From contig JAKAMG010000007.1 in assembly GCA_021812985.1 (NCBI GenBank), positions 55,936 to 119,935 of the forward strand: a stretch of 64,000 nt of DNA. The letters run 5' to 3'. The stretch's first letter is position 1. Every line of letters begins with the position of its first letter. The notes under the pieces are model-generated. The model saw nothing but the letters and a program-made list of their open reading frames with translations, was not told the origin of the DNA and did not search any database. Positions 6,219-35,624 of this stretch are shown in pieces. The DNA comes from Bacteroidota bacterium (GTDB lineage Bacteria > Bacteroidota > Ignavibacteria > Kryptoniales > JAKASW01). Both the position numbers and the translations under genes were made by a program.

Positions 6219-8927
6219 ATGGCCGCTGCTTCAAACTCATTTGACACGAAAAGAGATCTCAAGACCCAAAACTCTTCTTTCAAGATTTTTCATCTCCCAT
6301 CACTGAAATACCAGAACTTCAGCGTTGAAAAACTTCCTTTCTCGATCAGAATACTCCTGGAGAACATTCTGAGGCATGAGGACGGCAGGATAGTCACCGC
6401 CTCTGACGTTGAAGCTCTCCTGAAGTGGGACGGGAAGCATCTCCCCGAAAAGGAGATAGCCTTCATGCCTGCGAGAGTACTTCTCCAGGATTTTACCGGA
6501 GTTCCAGCGGTTGTGGACCTTGCGGCAATGAGAAGCGAAGTCAAGCGCCGGAATCTCAACACGGAAAAAATCAATCCGCTTATACCTTCTGAGCTTGTCA
6601 TAGATCATTCGGTTCAGGTCGACAAGTTCGGTTCTGACGATGCCTTCTTGTTCAATGCGGACCTCGAGTTCAAGAGGAACGTTGAACGCTACACCCTCCT
6701 CAGATGGGGTCAGAAGGCTTTCCGAAACTTCAACGTCGTGCCCCCCGACACGGGAATCGTACACCAGGTTAACCTGGAGTATCTGGCTCGTGTTATAGAG
6801 ACGCGTAATCAGAATGGCGAACTCAGAGCCTTTCCGGATTCGCTGGTTGGCACTGACTCGCACACTACTATGGTGAATGGTCTTGGTGTGTTTGGTTGGG
6901 GCGTGGGCGGAATCGAGGCAGAGGCGGTGATGCTCGGCCAACCCTATTTCATGCTTACCCCGGAAGTAATTGGCGTCAAGCTGACGGGAAAACTCCCAGA
7001 AGGGGCGACGGCCACAGATCTCGTCCTTACCGTCACGCAGGTGCTTCGGAAGAAAGGCGTCGTCGGAAAGATCGTCGAGTACTACGGCGCTGGAATGGGT
7101 GAGCTCAGCCTTCCTGATCGTGCCACGCTTAGCAACATGTCACCGGAATACGGCGCTACAATGGGATTCTTCCCGGTCGACGAGGAGACTCTGAAATACC
7201 TGAGGCTGACGGGTCGCTCAGACGAACAGGTGGGAGTGGTCGAAGCTTACTGCAAGGAGCAGGGACTTTTCTGGACGAAGGGTACGCCGGATCCTGTATA
7301 CAGCGACGTTGTGGAAATTGACATGTCGAAGATAGAGCCGAGCGTGGCTGGACCAAAGCGCCCGCAGGACAGGGTAGCTTTGAAAGACGTGAAAGCCTCA
7401 TTCGCAAAGTCTCTCGTCGCGCCTACTGCCGAACGAGGTTTTGGAGTGAAGGGCGAAGACACGGAAAAGAAAGTCACCGTTCGAAAGGGCGGCGAGAGCT
7501 TCGAACTGCGGAACGGTTCAGTCGTCATCGCGGCAATAACAAGCTGTACTAACACTTCAAACCCGAGCGTACTCGTCGCGGCGGGACTTCTGGCGAAGAA
7601 GGCCGTCGAGAAGTACGGACTGAAGCCAAAGCCCTGGGTAAAGACAAGCCTTGCTCCCGGATCACAGGTTGTGATGGACTACCTTGGCGACGCCGGACTG
7701 TTGAAGCCGCTTGAGGAGCTCCGCTTCAATCTTGTCGGCTATGGCTGCACGACCTGCATCGGTAACAGTGGTCCGCTCGACGAGGAAATATCATCTGCAA
7801 TAGAAAAGGGTAGTCTTGTCGCCGCCGCGGTGCTGAGCGGAAACAGGAACTTCGAGGGAAGGATAAACCCCAACGCGAAAGCTAGCTATCTCGCATCTCC
7901 GCCTCTCGTCGTGGCGTACGCATTGGCCGGACGCGTGGATTTCGACCCGATGACAGACCCCATAGGCAATGGAAGAGATGGAAAGCCGGTTTACCTCAGG
8001 GATATCTGGCCGGATCAGAAAGAAGTTGATGAGGTGTTGCGCAAGTCAATCCGTCCGGAGATGTATCGTTCGCGCTATGCCGGCGTTTTCGATGGCGACC
8101 AGCGTTGGCAGGGCCTGAACGTTCCGCAGGGAAGCAGTTACAACTGGGATTCGACCTCAACTTACATACAGGAGCCTCCTTTCTTCCAGAATCTCCCGCT
8201 CGAACCGGCGCCGCTGAAAGATATCGAAGGGGCCAGAGTCCTCGCGCTTCTCGGAGATTCGGTGACGACCGATCACATTTCGCCCGCGGGATCAATACAG
8301 GCAAACAGTCCCGCCGGAAAGTATCTGGTTGAGCACGGCGTACAGCCGAAAGACTTCAACTCATACGGCGCACGCCGCGGAAATCACGAGGTCATGGTAC
8401 GCGGCACATTCGCGAATATCCGTCTCAAGAATCTCCTTCTTCCAGGCACCGAAGGAACCTGGACGCTTCATCTGCCGGATGGTGAGAAGATGTGGATCTA
8501 CGACGCTTCAATGAAGTACCAGGCTGAGAAGACGCCTCTTCTTGTTATTGCCGGAAAAGAATATGGGAGTGGAAGCTCTCGCGACTGGGCGGCCAAAGGT
8601 ACCCTTTTGCTCGGCATCAAGGTGGTCATAGCGGAGAGCTACGAGAGGATTCACCGCAGTAACCTGGTTGGGTTGGGCGTTCTCCCGCTTCAGTTCAAGG
8701 AAGGGGAAAACGCGACGACGCTCGGACTGACTGGAAAAGAGAAGTATGCAGTTTCAGGAATCGCTGACAGTCTGACACCTCACAAGAAGCTGACGGTTAC
8801 AGCGACCTCGGATTCAGGTAAAACGACACGTTTTGAGGCGATTGCGCGTCTCGATAGCCACGTGGATGTCGAGTACTATAAGAACGGCGGGATACTCCAG
8901 ACGGTCCTCCGCCAGATGTTGAAGTAA
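6219..8927 (+). CDS. acnA: Aconitate hydratase (AcnA type)
   Basis: This [4Fe-4S] enzyme isomerises citrate to isocitrate and links gltA and icd in this block. It is 902 aa, the length of bacterial AcnA/IRP1-type enzymes. Cluster ligands are C443 ([10 protein letters not shown]), C510 and C513 ([11 protein letters not shown]). [21 protein letters not shown] and the C-terminal swivel motif [16 protein letters not shown] are complete. A GTG at 6210 is in frame, but the ATG at 6219 has GGAGTGA eight bases upstream and is preferred. The gene stands alone between two terminators. As in other AcnA proteins, a moonlighting RNA-binding role of the apo form is possible but not visible. Confidence 0.94.
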
Positions 8928-8952
8928 CTGACCATTTCAAGTTTGAAAGCTG

Positions 8953-8991
8953 CCGCCTATGACGAAATTTGGAAGTTATAGGCGGTTTTTA
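8953..8991 (+). terminator. Terminator after acnA
   Basis: CCGCCTAT (8953-8960) pairs with ATAGGCGG (8978-8985) around a 17-nt loop and is followed by TTTTT. Confidence 0.8.
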
Positions 8992-9018
8992 TAGATTTAT
9001 TGCAGAACAGGAGAAAAA

Positions 9019-9240
9019 ATGAGAAGTGGAATTCATCCCAAATATCATAATGTGACAGTAACTTGCGTGTGTGGCAATACATTCCAGACGCGTTCAACCG
9101 AGCCTGGACAGTTTCTTAAAGTTGAAATTTGTTCAAGCTGTCACCCGTTTTTTACGGGAAAGCAGAAGCTGATCGATTCGGCGGGGCGAGTTGAGAAGTT
9201 CATGCAGAAATATGGAAAGAAGCAGAAGACAGGGGCGTAA
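9019..9240 (+). CDS. rpmE: 50S ribosomal protein L31
   Basis: This 73-aa ribosomal protein starts [16 protein letters not shown], typical of L31. It is the zinc-binding (C+) form, with cysteines in CVC near residue 16 and CSSC near residue 37. C+ L31 can be replaced by a C- paralogue under zinc starvation; none is seen here. An AGGAG ribosome site precedes the ATG at 9019. It is followed by an unusual structured intergenic segment rather than an immediate gene. Confidence 0.95.
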
Positions 9241-9259
9241 TACTCCCTTTTCTTAAACC

Positions 9260-9460
9260 GTAGTCCTTGGGTTACTGGTCCGGGGACGAGAGGTGCTTGG
9301 GTTTGTAACCTGGGGCCTCCATAACACCCGGGCCTCTTTCCAAATAGATTTCCGGCTGGCCACGTGCAAGCAGTTGATCTGATAAGGCCGCCGAAGCAAT
9401 GTTGTAGTACACCGGGCATGTAATTGCTTCGACGGAAGTAAGACCGCAGCAAACGAAAAT
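9260..9460 (+). ncRNA. Candidate structured RNA or leader between rpmE and rsmB
   Basis: The 235-bp gap has no credible protein but folds well on paper. Helix A is 9290-9293/9333-9336 plus 9296-9301/9327-9332 (two U-G pairs, one 2-nt bulge). Helix B is 9353-9356 and 9358-9361 with 9386-9389 and 9390-9393 (8 bp, one bulged T). Helix C is a perfect 9-bp pair, 9392-9400 with 9423-9431. The ends (GTTACTGGTC near 9271 and GACCGCAGCAAAC near 9442) could close the molecule. The layout of a long irregular rod would suit 6S RNA, but I see no decisive family motif. It could instead be a leader of rsmB. The strand is assumed. Confidence 0.35.
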
Positions 9461-9475
9461 TTAAGGGGTGCAGTG

Positions 9476-10864
9476 ATGGTACAACCTAAGAGGTTTAGGA
9501 ATTATCCGCGTGAGGAATCCGATATCGTGATTTATGAGACTGCCCGTGAGGTAGCAGTTAAAGTCCTCAATCGCGTCGAGCGAACCGATTCTTATCTGGA
9601 TAAACTCCTCGATTTTGAGCTGAAGAACGCCGAACTCAGCAGGCTTGACAAATCGTTCCTTACTGAGCTTGTCAATGGAACGATCAGATGGAAGATGCGG
9701 ATAGACTACGTCATCTCGCAGTTCTACCGAGGTGACTACTCAAAGCTCGACATCAATATAAAGAACGCGATCAGGATTGCCATGTACCAGATCATGTTCC
9801 TTGAGCGCGTACCACAATCGGCGGCGGTGAATGAGGCCGTCGAGTTCGTCAAAAAATTGAGAGGCCAATTCCTCGCAAATCTTGTCAACGCGATTTTGCG
9901 CACTTCGATCCGAAAACTTGACACAATAGAGTATCCATCGATCGAAGACGATCCCATTCGGTCGCTCTCAATTGTTCACTCGTTCCCTACGTGGCTTGTC
10001 CGTCGCTTCGTAGATCGGTTCGGTGTTTACGAGACGGAACAGCTTCTCGTCGCGTTGAACGAAAGGCCGAGATTATCGATAAGAGTCAACCCCGGGAAGA
10101 TAAGTGCCGAGGAACTCTCTAGGCAGTTCGAGGAAAAGGGGCTTAACGTCAGCCGAGGGCATTTCATACAGAACTTCCTCTATGTCGACGGGCTATCCCG
10201 CATCGGGGAGCTTGAGTCTTTCAGGGCGGGGCAGTTTGCCGTCCAGGACGAGAGCGCAGGGCTCGTTTCCATACTCCTCGACCCGAAGCCGGGGGAGAGA
10301 GTGCTGGATATGTGCTCGGCCCCGGGCGGCAAGACAACTCATATACTTGAACTCACGAGGGGCGAGGCCGACGTGACGGCGGTGGAAAAATACGAGAACA
10401 GGGCGAAACTCGTACAGGAAGCCGTCGAGAGAATGGGATATAACCATGCGAAGATTGTTGTCGCTGATGCAGCGAAATTTTCGGACGCCGTGCAGTATGA
10501 CAAAATACTCATTGACGCACCGTGCACAGGTTTCGGCGTGGTGAGGAAGAAACCTGATTCGAAATGGAAGCGCGAACCGGAGGACATTGCATTGCTTCAT
10601 GCAATTCAGACGGAGATCATAGAGAATGCAGGCAAACTTCTCAAGCCCGGCGGAGTGCTCGTCTACAGCACTTGCACGGTTGAGCCCGAAGAAAACCAGG
10701 AAGTGGTTCAGAACTTTCTCAGGAGGCATCCGGAATGTACGCTTGAATCCGCCGAAGCGTTCGTTGATCACTCCTTCGTCAGCAAGGAAGGTTTTATCGA
10801 GACGTTTCCGCACAGGCATGATATGGACGGGAGTTTCGCCGCGCGTATCCGAAAATCGAAATGA
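9476..10864 (+). CDS. rsmB: 16S rRNA (cytosine-C5-)-methyltransferase RsmB
   Basis: This SAM-dependent enzyme makes m5C967 in 16S rRNA. The N-terminal NusB-like RNA-binding domain (about residues 10-140, with FLTELVNGTIRWK) is followed by the Rossmann methyltransferase domain: SAM motif MCSAPGGKTTHI, then C350 (DAPCTGFG) and the nucleophile C400 (YSTCTVEPEEN). These are 50 residues apart, as in E. coli C325/C375. A GTG at 9473 is in frame, but the ATG at 9476 has the better spacing from AAGGGG. It follows the structured segment described at 9260-9460. Confidence 0.92.
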   Translation: MVQPKRFRNYPREESDIVIYETAREVAVKVLNRVERTDSYLDKLLDFELKNAELSRLDKSFLTELVNGTIRWKMRIDYVISQFYRGDYSKLDINIKNAIRIAMYQIMFLERVPQSAAVNEAVEFVKKLRGQFLANLVNAILRTSIRKLDTIEYPSIEDDPIRSLSIVHSFPTWLVRRFVDRFGVYETEQLLVALNERPRLSIRVNPGKISAEELSRQFEEKGLNVSRGHFIQNFLYVDGLSRIGELESFRAGQFAVQDESAGLVSILLDPKPGERVLDMCSAPGGKTTHILELTRGEADVTAVEKYENRAKLVQEAVERMGYNHAKIVVADAAKFSDAVQYDKILIDAPCTGFGVVRKKPDSKWKREPEDIALLHAIQTEIIENAGKLLKPGGVLVYSTCTVEPEENQEVVQNFLRRHPECTLESAEAFVDHSFVSKEGFIETFPHRHDMDGSFAARIRKSK

Positions 10865-24560: not shown

Positions 24561-27500
24561 ATGACAAGTACCAGTAAATCCACAAGACTGTATGCTCTCA
24601 TAGGCATGATGGTCTTGTTTCCGCTTTGCGTCTTTGGATCGGCGAAAAATGATACGACGGACGTACTGCACAATATTAAGTTCAGGAACATCGGTCCGGC
24701 TGCGGCAGGCGGGAGGGTGAGCGCAGTAGTCGGAATTCCCGGTCAACCAAATATTTACTACGTAGGAGCGGCCGGCGGAGGAATCTTCAAGACCATAGAC
24801 GGAGGCATCTCCTGGAAACAGGTCTTCAAGCACGGCGCCACGTCGTCGATAGGCGCTATTGCGCTTGCGCCTTCCAATCCCAACTACGTCTGGGTCGGCA
24901 CCGGCGAGGCAAACCTCAGAAACGACATCATAACCGGCCGGGGGGTCTATTTTTCCCCTGACGCGGGAAAGTCATGGCAATTCATGGGACTAAGAGGCGT
25001 CGGTCAGATTTCACGAATCGTTGTGGACCCAACTGATCCGAATATTGTATTTGTTGCGGCGATCGGTCAGGCGTGGGCTCCAAACCCAGACAGAGGGGTC
25101 TTCAGGACAACCAACGGCGGCAAGACATGGGAGAAGGTACTCTTTGTGAACGATACGACAGGCGCATCATCTCTTGCAATGGACCCAGGCAACCCGAAGG
25201 TTCTGTTTGCAGGCATGTGGCAGGTGCGCCGATACCCGTGGATGCTCGACGACGGAGGAGACGGAAGCGGACTTTACAGGTCAACCGATGGCGGGACGAG
25301 CTGGAAGAAGCTCACGAAAGGACTTCCCACTGGAATGCTTGGGAGAATCGCCGTGGCGGCCGCGCCGAGCAACCCGGAACACGTTTACGCCCTGATCGAA
25401 TCCAAGAAAGGCATGCTTTGGGACTCCGGAGATTTAGGTGACCATTGGCATCTTGTCACCAACAATCATGATCTTGACGTCAGGCCGTTTTATTTTTCGA
25501 ATTTTATAGTGTCTCCTGACAATGATAACAAGCTTTTCTTCCTGTCCTTCCTGATCACCGAATCGACGGATGGCGGCAAGACAGTAAAGAATGTCAACGG
25601 CGATGTCCACGTTGACCACCACGCCATCTGGATCGATCCAGATAATGCGAACCGCATCATCATAGGCAACGATGGCGGTGCGTTTTTATCAGTCGATGGC
25701 GCCAAGACGTGGAGATTCCTAAACAATCTTCCGATAGAGCAGTTCTATCAGGTGGCCGTCGATAGCAGTAAGCCGTTCAATCTTGGGGGCGGTCTCCAGG
25801 ACAACAATGCGTGGTACGGCGTGTCATCAAACCTCAACGGCGGCGGAGTCACCGGTCAGAATTGGTTTGTCGTGGCTGGAGGTGACGGTGAGTACGTAGT
25901 ACCGGCGCCAAGCGACCCGAACATTGTCTATGCCGAATCACAGGACGGCTATCTGAAGCGTTTGGACTTGAAGACCGGTCTCTCAAGCTACATCAGACCT
26001 TATTATTACGATTCGCCCGACATGCCTCCGTCACAGCTGAAGTATCGCTTCAATTGGACTACTCCGATAGCTGTCTCCGCCACTGACGCGAACGAGGTGT
26101 TCGTAGGAGCCAATGTCCTCTTCAAGTCGTTCGACGGAGGACAACATTGGACGGTGATTAGCCCGGACCTCACTAGGAATGACAAGTCAAAGCAGCGTCC
26201 GAGCGGCGGTCCGATCAATCTGGACATAAGCGGTGCCGAGAATTATGATACTATTCTGTCCATTGCGATTTCTCCTCTCGATTCAAATATCATATGGGTT
26301 GGCACAGATGATGGCCTTGTGCAGCTGACCAAGGATGGTGGCCAGCACTGGGAAAATGTCGCGAAGACAATACCGCATCTTCCGGAATGGGGACGCGTGT
26401 ACCAAGTAGATCCGTCTCCGTTCGATCCGGCCTCATGCTATATCACGGTAGATCTCCACGAGATGAACAACAATAAGCCTTACGTCTTTAAGACAGATAA
26501 TTATGGGAAATCGTGGACTTCAATTGCAGCCGGATTACCTGACGACTACCCGGTGCACGTCGTTCGCGAGGACCCCAACACACGCGGATTCCTTGTCGCA
26601 GGAACGGATGCTGGGCTTTATTATTCGCGGAATGACGGAAAGAAATGGGAGCAGATCAAAAGCAACTTCCCAACGGCCTGTGTATACGACCTCAAGTTAG
26701 AGAAACATACACACGATCTGGTCGTGGCCACTCACGGCAACGGCATTTTCATACTCGACAACATCACGCCGCTCGAAGAGCTTGACAGTAAGGTGAGTTC
26801 CGAGCCGTTTCATCTGTTTAGCGCCTTGCCGGCGTACATGTACCATTTCAGATACAAGGATGCCTTCAACGATTTGAGCACTTACTCCGCGCCGAACGAG
26901 CCGAACGGCGTAATGCTCGACTACTATCTTCGCGACACTCTTGCGACTACACCTAAGATTGAGAAGGAACACAAGACTCCGATTCGCTTTGACATCAGTG
27001 ATGCGGCCGGCAATCATGTCGCAACCTTATATGGGCCTGACAAGAGAGGGATAAACAGGCTTGCATGGAACATGAGATATCAGAGCGCGGCACCGCTCAA
27101 AGTCGACGCGAAGATGGCGGCGAAGGCAAATCCGTTCTCGACCGGCGGGCCGATGGTCACGCCGGGAAAATACACGATTGTCGCCACGGTCGACGGAAAG
27201 ACGCAGACAGTTCAAACTCACGTCTACCCGGATCCAAGGTTCACAGTTCCATCTGATTACTTCACTTCGAACGCGACTACCGGTCTTCGGTCCCGTAATC
27301 AAGTATCGGCACTCAATCAGATGCTTAACCGGATTCGGAACATACAAGAACAAATCTCGACGATTAGGACATCTCTTTCCAATGATGAACCCGGAATGAA
27401 GGCCGGAAAGTATAAATCTATAATAGACGGGATGGATTCCGTCGAAAAGAAGCTGGTGGCCGTCAGAGATACAGTTTATTCGAAGGATGTCCAGCACGAC

Positions 27501-27761
27501 GTGGGTGAGGATGACATTCACGACTTCACGCATTTGACTTCACGCCTGACCGGAATGATGTATAATTTCACGTCTCCTTATTCCGGTCTACCGAGCGATG
27601 TGGTGATGCAGACATTTGCCGAATTGGGGAAGGAGCTGCACACCGAACTCGGCAGTTTCAACGGCATACTAGAGAAGGACATTCCTAGTTTTAACTCAGC
27701 CGCATTGAAAGTTGGCGCGCCGACAATCTTCGCCGGACCCGACATTCAGGTAGCGAAATGA
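24561..27761 (+). CDS. Secreted BNR/sortilin-like beta-propeller protein
   Basis: A 1066-aa exported protein. A signal peptide covers residues 1-27 (hydrophobic core MMVLFPLCVFG). At least nine Asp-box/BNR-like turns follow, e.g. GGISWKQV, AGKSWQFM, GGKTWEKV, GGTSWKKL, GAKTWRFL, GGQHWTVI, GGQHWENV, YGKSWTSI, and DGKKWEQI, over about residues 40-720. This gives one or two beta-propellers of the sortilin/VPS10 type. The last 300 residues have a beta-sandwich part and a helical tail. No sialidase catalytic set is evident, so glycosidase activity should not be assumed. An excellent GAGGAGG site precedes the ATG, and a terminator follows. Confidence 0.85.
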   Translation: MTSTSKSTRLYALIGMMVLFPLCVFGSAKNDTTDVLHNIKFRNIGPAAAGGRVSAVVGIPGQPNIYYVGAAGGGIFKTIDGGISWKQVFKHGATSSIGAIALAPSNPNYVWVGTGEANLRNDIITGRGVYFSPDAGKSWQFMGLRGVGQISRIVVDPTDPNIVFVAAIGQAWAPNPDRGVFRTTNGGKTWEKVLFVNDTTGASSLAMDPGNPKVLFAGMWQVRRYPWMLDDGGDGSGLYRSTDGGTSWKKLTKGLPTGMLGRIAVAAAPSNPEHVYALIESKKGMLWDSGDLGDHWHLVTNNHDLDVRPFYFSNFIVSPDNDNKLFFLSFLITESTDGGKTVKNVNGDVHVDHHAIWIDPDNANRIIIGNDGGAFLSVDGAKTWRFLNNLPIEQFYQVAVDSSKPFNLGGGLQDNNAWYGVSSNLNGGGVTGQNWFVVAGGDGEYVVPAPSDPNIVYAESQDGYLKRLDLKTGLSSYIRPYYYDSPDMPPSQLKYRFNWTTPIAVSATDANEVFVGANVLFKSFDGGQHWTVISPDLTRNDKSKQRPSGGPINLDISGAENYDTILSIAISPLDSNIIWVGTDDGLVQLTKDGGQHWENVAKTIPHLPEWGRVYQVDPSPFDPASCYITVDLHEMNNNKPYVFKTDNYGKSWTSIAAGLPDDYPVHVVREDPNTRGFLVAGTDAGLYYSRNDGKKWEQIKSNFPTACVYDLKLEKHTHDLVVATHGNGIFILDNITPLEELDSKVSSEPFHLFSALPAYMYHFRYKDAFNDLSTYSAPNEPNGVMLDYYLRDTLATTPKIEKEHKTPIRFDISDAAGNHVATLYGPDKRGINRLAWNMRYQSAAPLKVDAKMAAKANPFSTGGPMVTPGKYTIVATVDGKTQTVQTHVYPDPRFTVPSDYFTSNATTGLRSRNQVSALNQMLNRIRNIQEQISTIRTSLSNDEPGMKAGKYKSIIDGMDSVEKKLVAVRDTVYSKDVQHDVGEDDIHDFTHLTSRLTGMMYNFTSPYSGLPSDVVMQTFAELGKELHTELGSFNGILEKDIPSFNSAALKVGAPTIFAGPDIQVAK

Positions 27762-28073: not shown

Positions 28074-28158
28074 ACCTGTCCGTTAGGGGTGCTATCCCTG
28101 CAAAGGATGGCTGAGATAAACCCTACGAACCTGATCTGGGTAATTCCAGCGGAGGAAA
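28074..28158 (+). promoter_or_regulatory. TPP (THI-box) riboswitch
   Basis: The conserved thi-box is clear: GTTAGGGGTGC near 28082, GGCTGAGAT near 28110, ACCC, and AACCTGATCTGGGTAATTCCAGCGG ending near 28152 (read here as three separate blocks with P4/P5 between). These are the pyrimidine- and pyrophosphate-sensor helices of the aptamer. P1 would pair CCTGTCCG (28075-28082) with CGGAGG (28150-28155). The operon it heads contains a TonB receptor, thiamine pyrophosphokinase and a symporter, which confirms the ligand as thiamine pyrophosphate. Confidence 0.95.
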
Positions 28159-28179
28159 ATGGACGCTACTTCTCTGAAG

Positions 28180-28242
28180 CCGTTTCTCTTTTCAGCTGTT
28201 GGTTTGCCTGTCAGCTGGACTAGGAAACGGTTTATTGATTTT
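28180..28242 (+). terminator. Terminator-like expression platform of the TPP riboswitch
   Basis: CCGTTT (28180-28185) pairs with AAACGG (28225-28230), and CAGCTG (28193-28198) with CAGCTG (28212-28217), with two further pairs on each side of a 3x3 internal loop. TTTATTGATTTT follows. It lies between aptamer and receptor start, where a TPP-controlled attenuator is expected. The T tract is interrupted, so termination strength is uncertain. Confidence 0.6.
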
Positions 28243-28252
28243 AGGAGAAGTT

Positions 28253-30793
28253 ATGAAGATTGGATTACTTGCGATATTATTCTCTTGCTTTTTGGTCGCT
28301 TCAGGAAGCTACGCCCAACAAGGCAAGCCCATATACGGTGTGGTACTCGACTCACTCGACGACGCCGGCATCCCGCACGCGACTGTCATAATTCCTGAGT
28401 CTGGAGACAGCGCAATCACCAAAGTCGATGGCTCATTCCAGCTTTCTTCTTCCCCCTCAGGTAATTATTACCTTAGGGTCAGTGCTCCTGGTTACGTCAG
28501 CGTTGTGAGATGGCTTCAATCGGCGTCATCCCCTGTTAAGATTCTTATGAGCAGAAAGGCTTTTCATCTGAGCCCTATAATAGTCACTGCCCAGATCGCT
28601 CAAGCACGCAAGTCTCCAGTAACGTTCGCCAATCTCTCGGGAAAGATAATAGGTGAGCAGTACTCGACGCAGGATATGCCCGTCCTTCTTTCTCAACTTC
28701 CCTCCATCATTCAATATTCGGAGAACGGTGAAGGAATGGGGTACTCATACATCACGATGCGCGGATTCGACCAGCGAAGAATATCGATAATGATCAATGG
28801 GATTCCGCAGAATGATCCCGAGGATCATAATGTTTACTGGATCGACGTGCCCGACCTGCAGTCGAGCACAGGGAGCATTCAGGTACAGCGCGGCGCCGGC
28901 AATGAGTTTTACGGCGCCCCGGCTATCGGCGGCTCAATTAATCTCGAGACGACCAACCTGGCCGACGAGAGAAAGCTGAGCTTCTCGTTCGGCGCGGGAT
29001 CCACTGGCGAGACGTTTGACGGCTCGCTCGCACACAGGTTGTTCGGGACCGGGATGACCAGGAAGTATGCGGCCACATTTAGTTCAGGTCTCGTCGACGG
29101 CAAGTACGCGATTTACGCTCACCTCGCCAAAAACACTACAGACGGCTACAGGCAGTCCTCCTGGGTGAATCTCAACAGCTACTTCGTGAGCGCCAGCAGG
29201 TACGACGAAGGGGTGACGACCACCGTAAACATCTATGGAGGGCCGATCTCTGACGGGCTCTCGTACCTCGGACTTCCCCGGTTCGCCGCTCTCGACAGAA
29301 ACCTGCGTACCTCCAACTGGGACGATTGGAATTCAGACAGCAACTGGGTAAACTACTCTCCAAACATGCGGAGATTTATTGGAGGCAATGATACGGTCTA
29401 CGCCGTGCCACGAAGGCCATCAGAAATTGAGAACTTTTCGCAGCCCCACTTCGAGCTGTTGAACGAGTGGAAGCTCTCCCCTTCTCTCACGCTGAACAAC
29501 TCTCTGTTCTTAGTCCTCGGCTCCGGGTTTTATGATTACGATGGCTCGTGGGCCGACACAAACTACTTCCGAATTACGTCCCAATATGGGTTCAATCCGG
29601 TGGCGAATCCGGGAGACGCCCTCATTCACGCTTACGTGGGTTTGAGTCAGTATGGCTGGATACCACGTTTGACGATCAATCACGAAGATGGGACGCTTGT
29701 GCTCGGAGCAGAGCTTGATCGGAACTTCTCCGATCACTGGGCTTCCATACGATGGGCTCAGGGCCTCCCGCCCGGTCTCCCGGCGAGCTACGTCTACAAC
29801 CAGTGGAAGGCGCGAACGGACGTCGCTGCGATTTACGGCCACGAGCTTTACGACCTCAATTCGCGGGCAACAGTGATGCTTGATCTAGAGTACCAGTTTA
29901 AGCAGTACGATCTCTACTATGAGAAGTTCGTAGGCAACCACTTTTACGTGCCATACCATTTCCTGAACCCGAGAGTCGGCATCAACTATAATCTGACGTC
30001 CACATCGAACGTGTACTTCAGCGTAAGCCGCACCTCTCGTGAGCCGCAGCTGACCAGCATCTACAATGCGGATGAATCGAGTGGCGGCGAGACTCCACAC
30101 TTCGCACTCAACCCGGATTCGACTTACAATTTCGGCGAGCCACTCGTTAAGCCAGAGACGCTAAATGATTTTGAACTCGGATACCGGTTCGGTGACGGTC
30201 GGTTCAGGGCCGGGGTCACGGCATACTGGATGGAATTTTACAACGAGCTGGTCTCAAACGGTCTACTGGATCAATACGGCCAGCCGATAACCGGCAACGC
30301 GAAAAGGACACGTCATATCGGCCTCGAGCTAGAGGGAAGCGCCGCCTTGTCTCACGCTTTCTCGCTCTACGGCAACCTCGCGCTGAGCAGGAACACTCTT
30401 ATTGATTACACGAGCTACACCGATTCACTTGGCAACGCGGTCCCCGCCGGCGTATCGCTTGACGGGAATAAGATATCGGGATCGCCTGAGATCATAGGAA
30501 ACTTAAGGCTCCTCTACGAGTTCGGTAATTTTACAGGCATGGTGCTCGGCCAATACGTCGGCCCGCAGTTTACGGATAACTTCAATATGGCATCGCGACG
30601 AGTCGACCCGTACTTCGTGGCCAACGCGTGGCTGTCATACAAATTCACCAATCTCATCCAACTTTCTTCAGTTGAACTCAGATTTAGCGTCAACAACCTG
30701 TTTAACAGGGTTTACGTTTCTCACGGTGAGGGAGTTTACTTCTTCCCTGCCGCCACGAGAACCTTCTTCCTTGGCTGCACAGTTAATCTCTGA
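28253..30793 (+). CDS. TonB-dependent outer-membrane receptor, predicted thiamine/TPP uptake
   Basis: An 846-aa outer-membrane transporter. The signal peptide is residues 1-20 (LLAILFSCFLVASGSYAQ). A carboxypeptidase-regulatory-like beta-sandwich (about 24-105) is followed by the plug (about 125-240, with MRGFDQRRISIMINGIPQND and IQVQRGAGNEFYGAPAIGG) and a beta-barrel ending in an aromatic TFFLGCTVNL strand. The ATG at 28253 has a GGAGAA site; an open frame to 28199 is not used because it would shift the signal peptide inward. Control by the TPP riboswitch and the next gene (thiamine pyrophosphokinase) make a thiamine-class substrate likely. Confidence 0.9.
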   Translation: MKIGLLAILFSCFLVASGSYAQQGKPIYGVVLDSLDDAGIPHATVIIPESGDSAITKVDGSFQLSSSPSGNYYLRVSAPGYVSVVRWLQSASSPVKILMSRKAFHLSPIIVTAQIAQARKSPVTFANLSGKIIGEQYSTQDMPVLLSQLPSIIQYSENGEGMGYSYITMRGFDQRRISIMINGIPQNDPEDHNVYWIDVPDLQSSTGSIQVQRGAGNEFYGAPAIGGSINLETTNLADERKLSFSFGAGSTGETFDGSLAHRLFGTGMTRKYAATFSSGLVDGKYAIYAHLAKNTTDGYRQSSWVNLNSYFVSASRYDEGVTTTVNIYGGPISDGLSYLGLPRFAALDRNLRTSNWDDWNSDSNWVNYSPNMRRFIGGNDTVYAVPRRPSEIENFSQPHFELLNEWKLSPSLTLNNSLFLVLGSGFYDYDGSWADTNYFRITSQYGFNPVANPGDALIHAYVGLSQYGWIPRLTINHEDGTLVLGAELDRNFSDHWASIRWAQGLPPGLPASYVYNQWKARTDVAAIYGHELYDLNSRATVMLDLEYQFKQYDLYYEKFVGNHFYVPYHFLNPRVGINYNLTSTSNVYFSVSRTSREPQLTSIYNADESSGGETPHFALNPDSTYNFGEPLVKPETLNDFELGYRFGDGRFRAGVTAYWMEFYNELVSNGLLDQYGQPITGNAKRTRHIGLELEGSAALSHAFSLYGNLALSRNTLIDYTSYTDSLGNAVPAGVSLDGNKISGSPEIIGNLRLLYEFGNFTGMVLGQYVGPQFTDNFNMASRRVDPYFVANAWLSYKFTNLIQLSSVELRFSVNNLFNRVYVSHGEGVYFFPAATRTFFLGCTVNL

Positions 30794-30797
30794 GGCC

Positions 30798-31424
30798 ATG
30801 ACTTTCGAAAACTACAATCTCCTGTTCTGCAACGGTGATCCGCCGCGTCGTGAACGTCTGGTCCGGCTGGTTCCCCATCCCGCATCCGTCGTCTGCGCTG
30901 ACGGAGGTGCACAGAAGGCCATCATCTGCGGCTACGAGCCGGATCTCATTGTCGGCGACCTTGATTCGCTCGACTCATCCGGGAATCATCTCGCCTCGGC
31001 CGAAATCGTCAGGATCGCCAATCAGGACAACACCGACATGGAGAAGACCCTGGACGTAATGTTGGAGCGCGGAATGAACAATATCGTGGTCGCCGCCTTT
31101 TCGGGCGGACGCATAGACCAGACCCTTGCGAATATTCAGATCGGCTTCGAATATTCCAGGAAGTGCCGGATAGTCCTGGCAGATGACGGCTACCTGATTT
31201 TTCCGGTGACGGACTCCTTTGTCGGATCATTTCCAACAGGCAACACTATTTCAATATTGCCGATGAACGACGACACCGAGGTATCAAGCGACGGTCTTCT
31301 CTACGAGCTCGATGGCGGACTTATGCAAAAAGGAGGTCACGGGGTCAGCAACAGAATCAATCGTGAGAACTTCAGCATAAGTGTGCACAGGGGCGGCATA
31401 CTCGTCATGATAAAAGACTCATGA
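30798..31424 (+). CDS. thiN: Thiamine pyrophosphokinase
   Basis: It transfers pyrophosphate from ATP to thiamine to give TPP directly, the salvage route. It is 208 aa. Family motifs are CADGGA (about residue 33), PDLIVGDLDSL, DNTDMEKTLD, and FSGGRIDQTLANI. The ATG at 30798 lies four bases past the receptor stop with GAGG just upstream; the longer frame begins inside the receptor gene and is rejected. It overlaps the symporter gene in ATGA. With the upstream riboswitch and receptor it converts imported thiamine to cofactor, which in turn shuts the operon. Confidence 0.93.
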   Translation: MTFENYNLLFCNGDPPRRERLVRLVPHPASVVCADGGAQKAIICGYEPDLIVGDLDSLDSSGNHLASAEIVRIANQDNTDMEKTLDVMLERGMNNIVVAAFSGGRIDQTLANIQIGFEYSRKCRIVLADDGYLIFPVTDSFVGSFPTGNTISILPMNDDTEVSSDGLLYELDGGLMQKGGHGVSNRINRENFSISVHRGGILVMIKDS

Positions 31425-32884
31425 CGGCGACGCTCTCGGTTGCGGACTGGCTTGTCATAGGTCTCTATTTCGGCGCCGTGGTTTTCGTCGGTTTTCGTGC
31501 CGCCAGAAAAGCGCGCACTCATATTGACGAGTATCTCGTGGCGGGCAGGAGCCTGACGTTGCCCATATTCGTCGCCACACTTGTTTCGACGTGGTACGGC
31601 GGAATACTCGGGGTCGGCGAATTCTCATACAGATACGGGATTTCCAACTGGTTCATATTCGGGGTGCCGTACTACTTCTTCGCCATACTCTTCGCGATCT
31701 TTCTAGCGCCAAGGGTTCACAGGGCAAGACTCCACACCATCCCGGACAAGCTGCGGGAGACTTACGGCGACGCGACCGCCGGCATGGGAGCCTTCCTGAC
31801 TCTCTTCATCGTCACTCCCGCCCCTTATGTTCTGATGGTTGGGATAATCGTGCAGATGATTTCCGGCTGGTCACTCCTAACGTCAGTCGTCTTTACGACC
31901 GTGCTGTCGATAGTCTATCTTTATTCCGGCGGCCTCCATTCGGACGTGAAGACGAACTCGCTGGAGTTCATACTGATGTATCTCGGGTTCGGCGTAATAC
32001 TGCCCTACTGTTATTTCAACTACGGCGGATTCTCCTTCATTGCCTCGAATGTTCCCCCGGGCCATCTTACTCTGACCGGCGGAAATTCTTGGCAATACAT
32101 CATAGCGTGGTTCTTCATAGCAAGCTGGACCCTGATCGACCCGGCTTTCCATCAGCGATGCTATGCCGCAAAATCCGGAAGCGTTGCGCGGTACGGCATT
32201 CTTGTCTCGGTCATATTCTGGCTTTTCTTTGACTTTATGACTTCCATGACAGGATTATACGCCCGTGCCATCATACCTCACCTGTCGCAGCCGGCGATGT
32301 CTTACCCGGCTTTGGCCGGCGTCGTCCTGCCCCCAGTCGTAAAGGGCCTATTCTACGTTGGCATGCTCGCAACAATTATGTCCAGCCTGGAGAGCCTTAC
32401 GTTCATATCTGCCGTTACGATTGGGAAGGATATCTTCTTCAGATTGTTCAGCCGTGACGACGACCCTGCCGCATCGTCTCACAAGATTCGTCACTATTCG
32501 CAGATCGGCATCCTCATTACTGCCATCATATCGATCGCGATCGCGATTCTAATCCCATCTGTGATTCAAATATGGTATGACCTGGGTACAGTATTCGTCC
32601 CCGGCCTATTGCTCCCGCTGGTGACGAGTTATTTCCCGGGACTATTGGTCGGGAGGAAGTACATATTTCTATCGATGACATTCGGGTGGTCCGTCTCGCT
32701 CTTATGGCTCTTGTCGGGGATATTCGCGTCCGGGACCATGAATCCTCAATACCTACTTGGCATTCAGCCTATGTATCCGGGGCTTCTTATGTCTGCTACT
32801 TTTTACGCGATTGGATTGTTGAGGCGCTCTGGGAAGGATAAGGCAGGAGGGGGAAGCGGAAATTCAGAATCTCAACCTAAATGA
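31421..32884 (+). CDS. Sodium:solute symporter (SSS) family protein, predicted thiamine transporter
   Basis: A 487-aa inner-membrane symporter with about 13 TM helices. SSS family features are YLVAGRSL in the first loop, YGGILGVGEFSYRYGISNW in TM2, and SSLESLTFISAVTIGKD near TM8-9. Translation is coupled to thiN by ATGA, and the whole operon lies under a TPP riboswitch. By position it should carry thiamine (or a precursor) across the inner membrane after the TonB receptor. An SSS protein, ThiV, has been predicted before as a thiamine-related transporter by regulon analysis; whether this is the same subfamily I cannot say. Confidence 0.85.
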   Translation: MTATLSVADWLVIGLYFGAVVFVGFRAARKARTHIDEYLVAGRSLTLPIFVATLVSTWYGGILGVGEFSYRYGISNWFIFGVPYYFFAILFAIFLAPRVHRARLHTIPDKLRETYGDATAGMGAFLTLFIVTPAPYVLMVGIIVQMISGWSLLTSVVFTTVLSIVYLYSGGLHSDVKTNSLEFILMYLGFGVILPYCYFNYGGFSFIASNVPPGHLTLTGGNSWQYIIAWFFIASWTLIDPAFHQRCYAAKSGSVARYGILVSVIFWLFFDFMTSMTGLYARAIIPHLSQPAMSYPALAGVVLPPVVKGLFYVGMLATIMSSLESLTFISAVTIGKDIFFRLFSRDDDPAASSHKIRHYSQIGILITAIISIAIAILIPSVIQIWYDLGTVFVPGLLLPLVTSYFPGLLVGRKYIFLSMTFGWSVSLLWLLSGIFASGTMNPQYLLGIQPMYPGLLMSATFYAIGLLRRSGKDKAGGGSGNSESQPK

Positions 32885-33478
32885 TATTGCGGGTGCCGGA
32901 TGAGGTGAATTAAAGGCCAAACCAGGAGAAACGTCGAACCCCGAGAGCTCCGCGTCGACATACGCGTCAAGCATCGAGAGTAAATAAGCTCCAGCTATAT
33001 ACCACGCGTAAGAGTCCCGTTGGTCAAGGTAAGAATCCCGGTAGTTCTTGTAGTTGACGTCACCGTAAGGATTTGATGGAGTTATCGAATTAGCGTAATC
33101 CGCTTTGTAAGATTTGTAATATCTGTTATTCGCGACCCACTGCGATATAAAGAAGGCCTGCACTCCCCATACGATGGGTACCTTCCAATAACTTCCATTG
33201 TAAATCTGTCCCCCTCCGGGAAAAATCGAAAAGGTAACCGCAAGAAATGGGGACTTTGTCGTTCCTCGAATGCCTGTTGTATCTCCCGCCGCAACTATTG
33301 TCCCCGTGTCAGCTAAGGATGTAGGGCCCTGAAGACCCAGCCTCGACGTAAGCGAGAGGGCGGATTCTCTTTCTCCGACTGTGACCTGTGCCCTCGTCAA
33401 CGCCGGGACGAAGAGAAGGACGGCCGTAGTGATTTTCAGAAGAGGAAAAATTAAATCCGAGCTGCTACCTGTGCGCAA
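32864..33478 (-). CDS. DUF5683-like exported membrane protein
   Basis: A 204-aa protein with an N-terminal signal/TM segment (KITTAVLLFVPALTRAQ), then the motif FPGGGQIYNGSYWKVPIVWG and a second hydrophobic stretch (WYIAGAYLLSMLDAYVDAEL), the pattern of DUF5683 proteins common in Bacteroidota-Chlorobiota. Function unknown; probably in the envelope. The only usable start is TTG at 33478, which overlaps the end of ridA by 14 bases. Its 3' end overlaps the symporter gene on the other strand by 21 bases, with no terminator between. Last gene of parA-parB-ridA. Confidence 0.7.
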   Translation of the reverse strand: MRTGSSSDLIFPLLKITTAVLLFVPALTRAQVTVGERESALSLTSRLGLQGPTSLADTGTIVAAGDTTGIRGTTKSPFLAVTFSIFPGGGQIYNGSYWKVPIVWGVQAFFISQWVANNRYYKSYKADYANSITPSNPYGDVNYKNYRDSYLDQRDSYAWYIAGAYLLSMLDAYVDAELSGFDVSPGLAFNSPHPAPAISFRLRF

Positions 33479-33836
33479 TTACTTCTATCTCGATCAGCGC
33501 GTCTTTGGGGAGGCCTGACACCCCCACGGTTGTTCTTGCGGGAGGGTTCTCCTTGAAATACTCAGCGTATATCTTATTGAACTCGCCGAAGTCGGAAATA
33601 TTCTTGATGTAGATTGTGGTCTTTACGATGTTAGCGAAGGAGCATCCAGCAGATTCCAGGACACCCTTGATGTTGCTTAATATCTGACGAGTCTGCTGTT
33701 CCAGCCCTTGTACCATCTCGCCTGTATCAGGTTTCAGTCCGATCTGGCCGGAAAGCAAAATGAGCCCGTCTACTTCCACCCCTTGGGAATAAGGACCGAT
33801 GGGCTGGGGAGCGCTCTTCGTGTAAAGAATATTCAT
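33465..33836 (-). CDS. ridA: RidA family reactive imine/enamine deaminase
   Basis: It hydrolyses the 2-aminoacrylate/imine intermediates made by PLP enzymes such as threonine dehydratase. At 123 aa it has the normal length and forms a trimer. Family motifs are APQPIGPYSQGV, LSGQIGLKP, and NPPARTTVGVSGLPKDALIEIEVIA, including the key arginine in ARTT. It starts four bases after the parB stop, an unusual partner for the partition genes; the grouping is probably transcriptional only. Confidence 0.95.
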   Translation of the reverse strand: MNILYTKSAPQPIGPYSQGVEVDGLILLSGQIGLKPDTGEMVQGLEQQTRQILSNIKGVLESAGCSFANIVKTTIYIKNISDFGEFNKIYAEYFKENPPARTTVGVSGLPKDALIEIEVIAHR

Positions 33837-33840
33837 TGGA

Positions 33841-34779
33841 TTACTCCTTCCTGTCCTGAAGGATCAGTTCAACAAGCCTGCTAAGGTCGTCATCGTTATA
33901 GAATTCGATCCGGATCTCGCCGCTTCGTGAATCTCCGTAGTTAATTTTTACCTTCGTCCCAAAATATCTTCTGAGCTTGTCTATCATGTCGAGGATGACG
34001 GGGTCAGTAGGGGCCTTTGAAGCCGCCTCTTTTGGCGTCACGCCCCTGGAAGTTTCCGATTTACTCGTTTCACGTCCGAGAATTATCCTGACTTCCTTTT
34101 CCACCTGGCGTACGCTCAAGTTGTGGCGCATTACTTTGGAGAAAAGTCGGAATCTTTCAGTAGGATCTTCAATCGCGAGGAGCGCTCGCGCATGACCGGA
34201 AGAAATGCTCCCCTCAATGAGTCCTCTCTGAATTTCCGCAGGGAGTCGAAGAAGCCTTAAGAAATTGGCCACAGTAGCGCGGTCCTTCCCTACGCGCTCA
34301 GCGACCTGCTCCTGGGTCAGGCTGCATTCATCGATGAGTCTCTGATATCCGGTCGCTACTTCGATAGCGTTAAGGTCCTCGCGTTGAAGGTTTTCGGTGA
34401 GGGCCAGCTCGAGCATCTTGGCGTCTGAGTCGACCTGGAGCACGTAAGCGGGCACTTCAGTGAACCCCAATTCCGAGACGGCACGAAACCTTCGCTCCCC
34501 CGATACGAGCTCAAAGAAGTCGCTCTCAACTCGCCTTACGGTAATTGGCTGAATGAGCCCGTTTTCTCTGATGGAACTCTTGAGCTCTTCAAGAGCCTCG
34601 CGTCCAAATTCCTTCCTCGGCTGGAGCTTGTTTGCGCGTATCCGGTTGACCGACACCTTGGATATTGAGCTGGCCGGCGCACGATGAGGTTGAGGTGGAG
34701 AGGCAACCTCCGGGATGACGTCAGAATCCTTCTTGAGGAGGGCATCCAAGCCTCTACCAAGCCTTACATTAGACTTCAT
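33841..34779 (-). CDS. parB: Chromosome-partitioning protein ParB
   Basis: A 312-aa CTPase and parS-binding protein. The N-terminus RLGRGLDALL is typical; the CTP/ParB domain has GERRFRA and TENLQREDLNAIEVA (about 90-150). The HTH part includes LTQEQVAERVGKDRATVANFLRLL (about 155-180), and the C-terminal dimerisation segment follows. Its start overlaps parA by four bases. It loads on parS near the origin and acts with ParA and SMC. I found no parS palindrome in the window, so the origin distance cannot be judged. Confidence 0.95.
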   Translation of the reverse strand: MKSNVRLGRGLDALLKKDSDVIPEVASPPQPHRAPASSISKVSVNRIRANKLQPRKEFGREALEELKSSIRENGLIQPITVRRVESDFFELVSGERRFRAVSELGFTEVPAYVLQVDSDAKMLELALTENLQREDLNAIEVATGYQRLIDECSLTQEQVAERVGKDRATVANFLRLLRLPAEIQRGLIEGSISSGHARALLAIEDPTERFRLFSKVMRHNLSVRQVEKEVRIILGRETSKSETSRGVTPKEAASKAPTDPVILDMIDKLRRYFGTKVKINYGDSRSGEIRIEFYNDDDLSRLVELILQDRKE

Positions 34780-35624
34780 AAATTCGCGTCTTCTCTACTA
34801 TTGTCGTGAACCGCGGTCTGGTCTGGCTTCACCCCTGAGCCTTCGTGGGCTGCGTTCTGGTTCGAATTTCTCTCAAGGAGTTCTCTTGCGAGCTCCATAT
34901 AATGCCTTGCTCCCAGTGACGCCGCGTCGTAAAGGATTATCGGTTTCCCGAAGCTCTGAGCTTCGCTCAGGCGAACATTTCTGCCAATGACGGTATTGAA
35001 GACCCGCTGCTCAAAATAGCGCCTGACTTCCTCCACCACCTGATTGGAAAGCTTCAACCTCGAGTCAAACATCGTCAGAAGCACCCCCTCGAGTTCAAGT
35101 GTTGAGTTGAGGTTTCGCTTGACTCGCGAGATGGTATTCAGAAGCTGGCCAAGTCCCTCGAGGGCGAAGTACTCAGTTTGGACGGGAACCAGAACGCTGT
35201 CTGCGGCCACTAGTGCGTTTACAGTCAGAAGACCCAGCGATGGGGGGCAGTCTATAAGAATGTACTCGAATTCGTCCCTGATGGCCGACAGAGCGTTGCG
35301 GAGGAGGAGTTCCCTGTTCTCCGCATCGACGAGCTCTATTTCAGCCCCCACCAGGTTAATATCCGACGGAACAAGCTTGAGATAGGAAAGCGAAGTGTCC
35401 CGTATCGCCGCCAATGCGGTAGAGGAACCTATGAGGATTTCGTAGGTGCTGGTATGTTCCTGGTTCTTGTCAAAGCCCAGGGAACTTGTGGCGTTCGACT
35501 GCGGGTCGATGTCCACAAGAAGTATCTTGTGTTCAAGCGCCGCTATACAGGCCGACAAATTGACGGTAGTAGTAGTCTTTCCGACGCCCCCCTTCTGGTT
35601 GGCTATGGCGACAATCTTTCCCAT
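34776..35624 (-). CDS. parA: Chromosome-partitioning ATPase ParA (Soj)
   Basis: A 282-aa Walker-type ATPase that moves ParB-parS complexes over the nucleoid. The deviant Walker A motif is KGGVGKTTTTVNL at residues 10-22; the Walker A' DIDPQSNATSS and the B motif (YILIDCPPSLGLL) are intact. The length and lack of an N-terminal HTH mark it as the chromosomal type. It is the first gene of parA-parB-ridA-DUF5683 and has a good promoter 50 bp upstream with an overlapping inverted repeat. Confidence 0.96.
   Translation of the reverse strand: MGKIVAIANQKGGVGKTTTTVNLSACIAALEHKILLVDIDPQSNATSSLGFDKNQEHTSTYEILIGSSTALAAIRDTSLSYLKLVPSDINLVGAEIELVDAENRELLLRNALSAIRDEFEYILIDCPPSLGLLTVNALVAADSVLVPVQTEYFALEGLGQLLNTISRVKRNLNSTLELEGVLLTMFDSRLKLSNQVVEEVRRYFEQRVFNTVIGRNVRLSEAQSFGKPIILYDAASLGARHYMELARELLERNSNQNAAHEGSGVKPDQTAVHDNSREDANL

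Follow-up and report, generated by a model that had tools for sequence, protein, structure and literature searches.

A TPP-riboswitch operon joining a TonB receptor and ThiN to a sodium:solute symporter, a likely thiamine permease, in an Ignavibacteria genome

A riboswitch-led operon of three genes

The window analysed here, a stretch of 64,000 nucleotides from a Bacteroidota bacterium of the class Ignavibacteria (assembly GCA_021812985.1, contig JAKAMG010000007.1), carries on its forward strand a thiamine pyrophosphate (TPP) riboswitch followed by genes for a TonB-dependent outer-membrane receptor, the thiamine pyrophosphokinase ThiN and a protein of the sodium:solute symporter (SSS) family. 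The riboswitch aptamer, a THI element, occupies positions 28075-28174 (Rfam RF00059, 67.8 bits against a gathering cut-off of 54.3, E 3.5e-11); the initial annotation had let the stretch begin at 28074, one base 5' of the Rfam match. Directly 3' of the riboswitch lies the receptor gene (28253, the ATG, to 30793, the stop), whose product of 846 residues shows CarboxypepD_reg, Plug and barrel domains in profile searches (PF13620/PF13715, PF07715, PF00593) and is a predicted thiamine receptor. It is followed by thiN (30798-31424, 208 residues; TIGR01378 at 140.6 bits, cut-off 76.4; PF04263 and PF04265) and by the symporter gene (31421-32884, 487 residues), a predicted Na+-coupled thiamine permease in which PF00474 (92.1 bits against 22.8) is the sole domain reported, PF04973 not being among its matches. 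The arrangement read from the bare sequence in the initial annotation, a THI box, receptor, thiN and symporter set tightly together (4-bp gap, ATGA overlap), is borne out by Rfam, the profiles and the reading frames: the receptor gene and thiN are spaced by 4 bp (30794-30797), thiN and the symporter gene share ATGA at 31421-31424, and all three open reading frames are intact.

We propose that the symporter is, with high probability, the inner-membrane, Na+-coupled thiamine permease of this operon, acting together with the predicted receptor and ThiN. The TonB receptor would admit thiamine through the outer membrane, the symporter would carry it over the inner membrane, coupled to sodium, and ThiN would turn the imported thiamine into TPP inside the cell. 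In its domains and setting the receptor resembles OMthi (BT2390 type), with TonB receptor domains encoded behind a TPP riboswitch and thiN alongside. Since the gene upstream (24561-27761) stops 313 bp 5' of the aptamer and the genes downstream of the symporter lie on the opposite strand, the operon is most simply taken to consist of receptor, thiN and symporter only. On that opposite strand, a DUF5683 gene (32864-33478) converges on the symporter gene, sharing 21 bp with its end; behind it, on the same strand, stand a RidA-type gene (33465-33836) and ParB-/ParA-like genes (33841-35624), named by eye.

How might the riboswitch act on the operon? In the minimum-energy fold of the leader (z -3.14), a hairpin abuts aptamer stem P1. 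Its outer arm, a predicted anti-Shine-Dalgarno arm directly 3' of P1 (28168-28175, forward strand), forms base pairs with GGAGAAGT, the Shine-Dalgarno stretch ahead of the receptor ATG (28244-28251, forward strand). A like arrangement appears in L103 (z -6.69) and L106 (z -7.41), both relatives in the same genus group, and one pair of the outer arm varies, being A-U in the window, G-U in L103 and G-C in L106; the comparison draws on these two loci, the aligned stretches of L104 and L105 ending short of the aligned start codon. A pattern scan of the leader (28075-28253) returned no terminator-like site, and a transcription terminator was rejected as the switching element, the scan being empty and the Shine-Dalgarno hairpin fitting better. 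Because the fold contains this hairpin and the leader has no terminator-like site, control is likely exerted on translation, in the off direction with TPP. When TPP is plentiful the riboswitch would close, the Shine-Dalgarno stretch of the receptor gene would stay masked in the hairpin behind the aptamer, and translation of the receptor would fall.

Linkage and kinship of the symporter

Within the class, the symporter query matched 233 of 294 genomes at E <= 1e-10. Under stricter filters, RF00059 matched 283 of the 294, above its cut-off in 253, with a single match in all but 13. Among the matches listed, the positions of riboswitch and symporter could be compared in 73 class genomes, and in 49 of these, from ten family groups, riboswitch and symporter share a strand, with the symporter 2.9-4.3 kb downstream. 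At the 30 best-scoring loci (L002-L031, the window's own included), thiN is upstream of the symporter without exception. Other neighbours were seen as well: a patatin-Omp85 protein gene follows the ThiN-symporter pair at locus L091 of family group f7 (span 7149-9896), genes of similar length stand behind the pair in L092-L094, and a small SET-domain gene sits directly behind the riboswitch-led TonB gene in two genomes of group f15 (L062, 4082-4582; L063, 3547-4074).

Beyond the class, we considered the best 80 of 538 confirmed stretches from a scan of named genomes, calling riboswitches with a model built from 22 class riboswitches and counting a locus as evaluable where it had sufficient upstream sequence or the feature was found. 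Of 77 evaluable loci, 62 have ThiN upstream of the symporter at a distance of no more than 0.8 kb; a TonB receptor is upstream in 48 of 67 evaluable loci and a riboswitch in 45 of 62, with a 46th match (L159) on the opposite strand; all three features occur together in 39 of the 80 loci. Rfam's own model, run on 22 genomes of these loci, found the TPP riboswitch in 21, above the cut-off in 19, both KSB1 matches (genomes of L139 and L142) falling below it. The record titles of the named loci, given here as deposited although some look wrong, include Kryptoniota, Ignavibacteria, Bacteroidetes, KSB1, Armatimonadetes, Acidobacteriota, Calditrichota, Neomarinimicrobiota, Zixibacteria, Eisenbacteria and others. 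A TonB receptor is missing from three Armatimonadota loci (L143, L150, L166), which do have riboswitch, ThiN and symporter. One title that looks wrong is that of L165 (genome G305), Ectothiorhodospiraceae, and the phylum sample around it repeats genomes of the window's class. A candidate fusion of ThiN and symporter in L119 (5266-7401, one open frame) was dropped; it is unproven because an ambiguous base sits at the junction.

To which symporters is the protein related? In a tree of 60 symporters, built by a quick method without bootstrap and with several long branches, those of PanF and ActP among them, the 28 family members form one side of a branch of length 1.25 with a Shimodaira-Hasegawa-like approximate likelihood ratio (SH-aLRT) support of 100. 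Outside this clade stand PutP, PanF and ActP of Escherichia coli, nine other symporters of the window's own genome and plasmid-borne symporters. Grouping with proline, acetate or pantothenate carriers was rejected on the tree, and pantothenate also on the panF equivalog model, which gives the symporter 80.3 bits against a cut-off of 328.05. In the phylum sample around G305, apparently the window's own phylum, 86 of 296 genomes have a family member scoring at least 339 bits, and the next match has 166 bits. A search of the stretches around 29 loci with other symporters turned up no TPP riboswitch, and the plasmid records examined, 11 of the 40 that matched, held other symporters only, with no riboswitch in their stretches. 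The window holds a second symporter of this genome (58266-59525, reverse strand; PF00474, 183 bits), which falls outside the thiamine-linked clade and has no TPP riboswitch in its surrounding stretch (L201).

Two outcomes had been named at the outset as fatal to a thiamine role: clustering of the symporter with proline, acetate or sugar carriers, and its occurrence without riboswitches or thiN in close relatives. Both fail. The protein groups neither with the three E. coli carriers nor with the nine symporters of its own genome, in a tree in which no sugar carrier stood under a name, and in relatives thiN mostly accompanies it, as the riboswitch often does.

Thiamine need and exchange with PnuC

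Profile searches of the window's genome (3.5 Mb, completeness 98.95%) gave no match to thiC, thiE, PnuC/PnuT (PF04973) or ThiT. Thiamine biosynthesis was rejected for this organism, thiC and thiE being without match while the controls respond, with matches in 13 and 11, respectively, of 14 named genomes. The genome has a single match to ThiN, a single TPP riboswitch (RF00059 search) and three TPP-enzyme domains of the transketolase-type pyrimidine-binding kind. A cell of such gene content must import thiamine, which ThiN converts to TPP. Given that thiC, thiE, ThiT and PnuC have no match and that there is one ThiN and one TPP riboswitch, the organism is probably a thiamine auxotroph and the operon its thiamine route; in a genome without thiC or thiE, intact thiamine is the likely cargo of the symporter. 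The salvage route postulated in the initial annotation thus gains support from these absences, together with the separate clade and the linkage to thiN and riboswitch.

For the distribution of PnuC and thiE, 80 of the 294 class genomes were picked to span families, after the symporter and riboswitch tables and before the PnuC and thiE results. The symporter, counted as present at E <= 1e-60 (the weakest counted being G037 at 2.8e-77, with G004 at 1.1e-15 counted absent), occurs in 65 of the 80. PnuC (PF04973) is found in seven genomes, none of them among the 65 with the symporter and all among the 15 without. thiE exceeds its cut-off in 12 genomes, eight symporter-less and four symporter-bearing; at E <= 0.001 the count is 19, the seven extra being G028, just below the cut-off, and six at no more than 26 bits, G277 included. 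PnuC or thiE above cut-off is present in 15 of 15 symporter-less genomes (seven with PnuC, eight with thiE), against 4 of 65 symporter-bearing ones (Fisher 2.0e-6 for PnuC and 5.8e-13 for PnuC or thiE, values that ignore shared ancestry).

The exchange is visible at the locus itself. In G277 and G115 the operon runs TPP riboswitch, TonB receptor, ThiN and PnuC, with PnuC in the slot of the symporter. As both families fill the same slot of an otherwise identical operon in related genomes, the symporter has likely replaced PnuT non-orthologously, or PnuT the symporter, and the presence of both kinds of genome within each of the family groups f8 and f17 suggests that the exchange occurred more than once. 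The other five PnuC genomes have no ThiN or riboswitch within the 7.5-8 kb around PnuC, and for this reason their PnuC may be a nicotinamide riboside carrier. In G014 and G218, which have thiE and no symporter, the riboswitch precedes thiC operons.

Could the symporter carry a precursor of thiamine, hydroxymethylpyrimidine (HMP) or the thiazole, as has been proposed for ThiV of SAR11? ThiV is likewise an SSS protein encoded behind a TPP riboswitch, and SAR11 cells take up HMP (PMC11452348). The four symporter-bearing genomes with thiE (G038, G065, G085 and G121) have no thiC match; with thiE above its cut-off, precursor use is possible there, and these genomes possibly combine partial precursor salvage with thiamine uptake. 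In the window's genome, however, the known enzymes could not join precursors into thiamine, because neither thiE nor thiC has a match, and ThiN, an enzyme that acts on thiamine, is the close upstream neighbour in the 62 named loci counted above. We consider a precursor cargo very unlikely and continue to favor intact thiamine.

Fold, candidate binding residues and known systems

The AlphaFold model of the symporter (mean predicted local distance difference test score, pLDDT, 91.5) retrieves with Foldseek, as its first 39 matches, SSS/SLC5-type proteins throughout, represented by structures of SGLT, CHT, SiaT, NIS, SMCT, vSGLT and DUR3, and its predicted fold is accordingly of the SLC5/LeuT type. 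Searched with the family profile, the best solved relative is 9rws, labelled a high-affinity choline transporter (E 3.7e-30), with SGLT, vSGLT, CHT1, SMCT, SMVT, NIS and SiaT behind it. The residue numbering of 9rws fits sfCHT, a prokaryotic CHT. W58, Y84 and W385 of the symporter align with W99, Y126 and W445 of 9rws, which correspond to W62, Y91 and W406 of human CHT1, where replacement by alanine abolished choline uptake (PMC13220886). Three of the five aromatic residues of the CHT choline cage thus align with conserved residues of the family; CHT1 W141 and W254 are not conserved, T132 standing opposite one and the other falling in a gap beside D240-P241. Across 120 family rows, W or F is found at position 58 in 120, Y at 84 in 117 and W at 385 in 117, compared with 4, 4 and 2, respectively, of 32 other symporters. 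The thiazolium of thiamine would fit a cage built for a quaternary nitrogen. Opposite S321 and S322 stand the S and T of E. coli PutP that we take to be Na2-site hydroxyl residues; 109 of the 120 rows have S at 321, and 119 have S or T at 322. The hydroxyl residues expected of an Na2 site in the SSS family are present, and sodium coupling is predicted.

The choline transporters invite a different reading, in which the symporter is a passenger in the operon with another cargo, such as choline or another quaternary amine. The cargos of the SSS superfamily are many and the closest solved relative is a choline-transporter homologue, but the two tryptophans missing from the cage of five, the association with thiN and riboswitch in many families, and the fact that symporter and PnuC never occur together in the 80 genomes and are exchanged at one locus make this the least probable of the readings considered. 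Environmental vitamin B1 may be phosphorylated. Import of thiamine monophosphate or of TPP itself would accord with that, the cargo of the TonB receptor being a prediction; yet import of TPP would make ThiN, the usual partner gene, needless, and in CHT the aligned residues have a small organic cation as their ligand. We rate a phosphorylated cargo as slightly less probable than a precursor, and thiamine itself remains the cargo we propose.

Beside the four genomes with thiE, several observations weigh against this proposal. Of the 73 comparable class genomes, 24 have the symporter somewhere other than behind the riboswitch; in group f7 (five genomes examined) the ThiN-symporter pair is separated from the riboswitch, of which one was found in each genome, and in three f19 genomes examined the symporter is beside unrelated genes with no adjoining thiN. 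Among the named loci, ThiN within 0.8 kb is missing in 15 of 77 evaluable cases and an upstream riboswitch in 17 of 62. PanF and ActP are also aromatic (Y) at position 58, and the carrier search in the window's genome covered PnuC and ThiT, not ThiBPQ, YkoEDCB, ThiXYZ or CytX. Where the linkage breaks, the examined pieces of the operon mostly persist: a riboswitch-TonB unit was seen in all four f7 genomes whose riboswitch stretch was examined and elsewhere in the genome in two of the three f19 genomes, and one f3 genome keeps riboswitch, TonB receptor and ThiN together with the symporter apart.

How does the operon compare with known systems? Cabys_3975-3977 of Caldithrix abyssi, described in 2017, has the same four parts, a TPP riboswitch, TonB receptor, sodium-solute symporter and thiamin pyrophosphokinase, and its authors gave the receptor a probable part in thiamine transport and spoke of candidate thiamine transporters (PMC5317091). 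As a correction to the initial annotation, the operon type is already described, the gene set being in print for one species. In the available passages of that report, which concerns a single species, the symporter is named merely as part of the locus, with no analysis of family, exchange or clade. The OMthi-pnuT-tnr3 operon of Bacteroides likewise combines a TPP riboswitch with a TonB receptor, a homologue of the pyrophosphokinase and a single permease of the inner membrane; that permease is PnuT, of the PnuC family, which earlier work quoted there showed to carry thiamine (PMC5613172), whereas the window's is an SSS protein.

Within the SSS family, ThiV/SSSP of SAR11, Methylobacillus and algae is tied to TPP riboswitches (PMC4260697, PMC11452348), and a published HMP/thiamin signature consists of Tyr (SiaT 78), Asp (SiaT 139) and Phe followed by His or a polar residue (SiaT 254) (PMC11452348). 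The window's symporter has Y84-Y85 in the stretch taken as core helix 2 and F243-H244 in that taken as helix 6, residues that recall the Tyr and the Phe-His of this signature. With SiaT numbering unmapped, the signature Asp of helix 3 was not seen, and no acidic residue occurs at 118-150. The proposed cargos differ, HMP for SAR11 ThiV and, by prediction, thiamine here. In fungi, DUR31 of Candida is described as a thiamin transporter under a TPP riboswitch (PMC5997356). A Neurospora transporter that also has such a riboswitch falls in the PF00474 group SSSQ (PMC4260697) and is likely the DUR31 orthologue; these riboswitches are of the splicing type. CHT/SLC5A7 (9rws, 8j74; PMC13220886), the best solved relative by sequence, with which three cage residues align, carries choline, whereas the genomic setting of the symporter is thiamine. 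A survey of TPP regulons (PMC3766115) names no ThiV, PnuT or symporter in its main text. Our search of the open literature, by titles and abstract openings, found among the papers listed no publication on this symporter clade as a PnuT replacement, and for Kryptonia and thiamin none that mentions Kryptonia; how widely the family occurs, its mutual exclusion with PnuC, the swap at a single locus and the residues resembling those of CHT were likewise not found in print.

More tentatively, and at a little less than an even chance, we speculate that the family is an undescribed clade of Na+-coupled thiamine permeases, separate from ThiV and spread over the window's class and recorded Armatimonadota, Calditrichota, KSB1, Zixibacteria and others, which has been exchanged with PnuT more than once within one conserved riboswitch operon and would grip the thiazolium in a CHT-like cage. 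If so, a specific function could be given to an SSS clade so far annotated merely as sodium:solute symporter, and the vitamin supply of many probably thiamine-auxotrophic lineages without PnuT would be explained. The swap of two unrelated families inside one operon also provides a natural experiment on how permeases are exchanged, and the aromatic cage, if correctly read, would link thiamine and choline recognition within the SLC5 superfamily.

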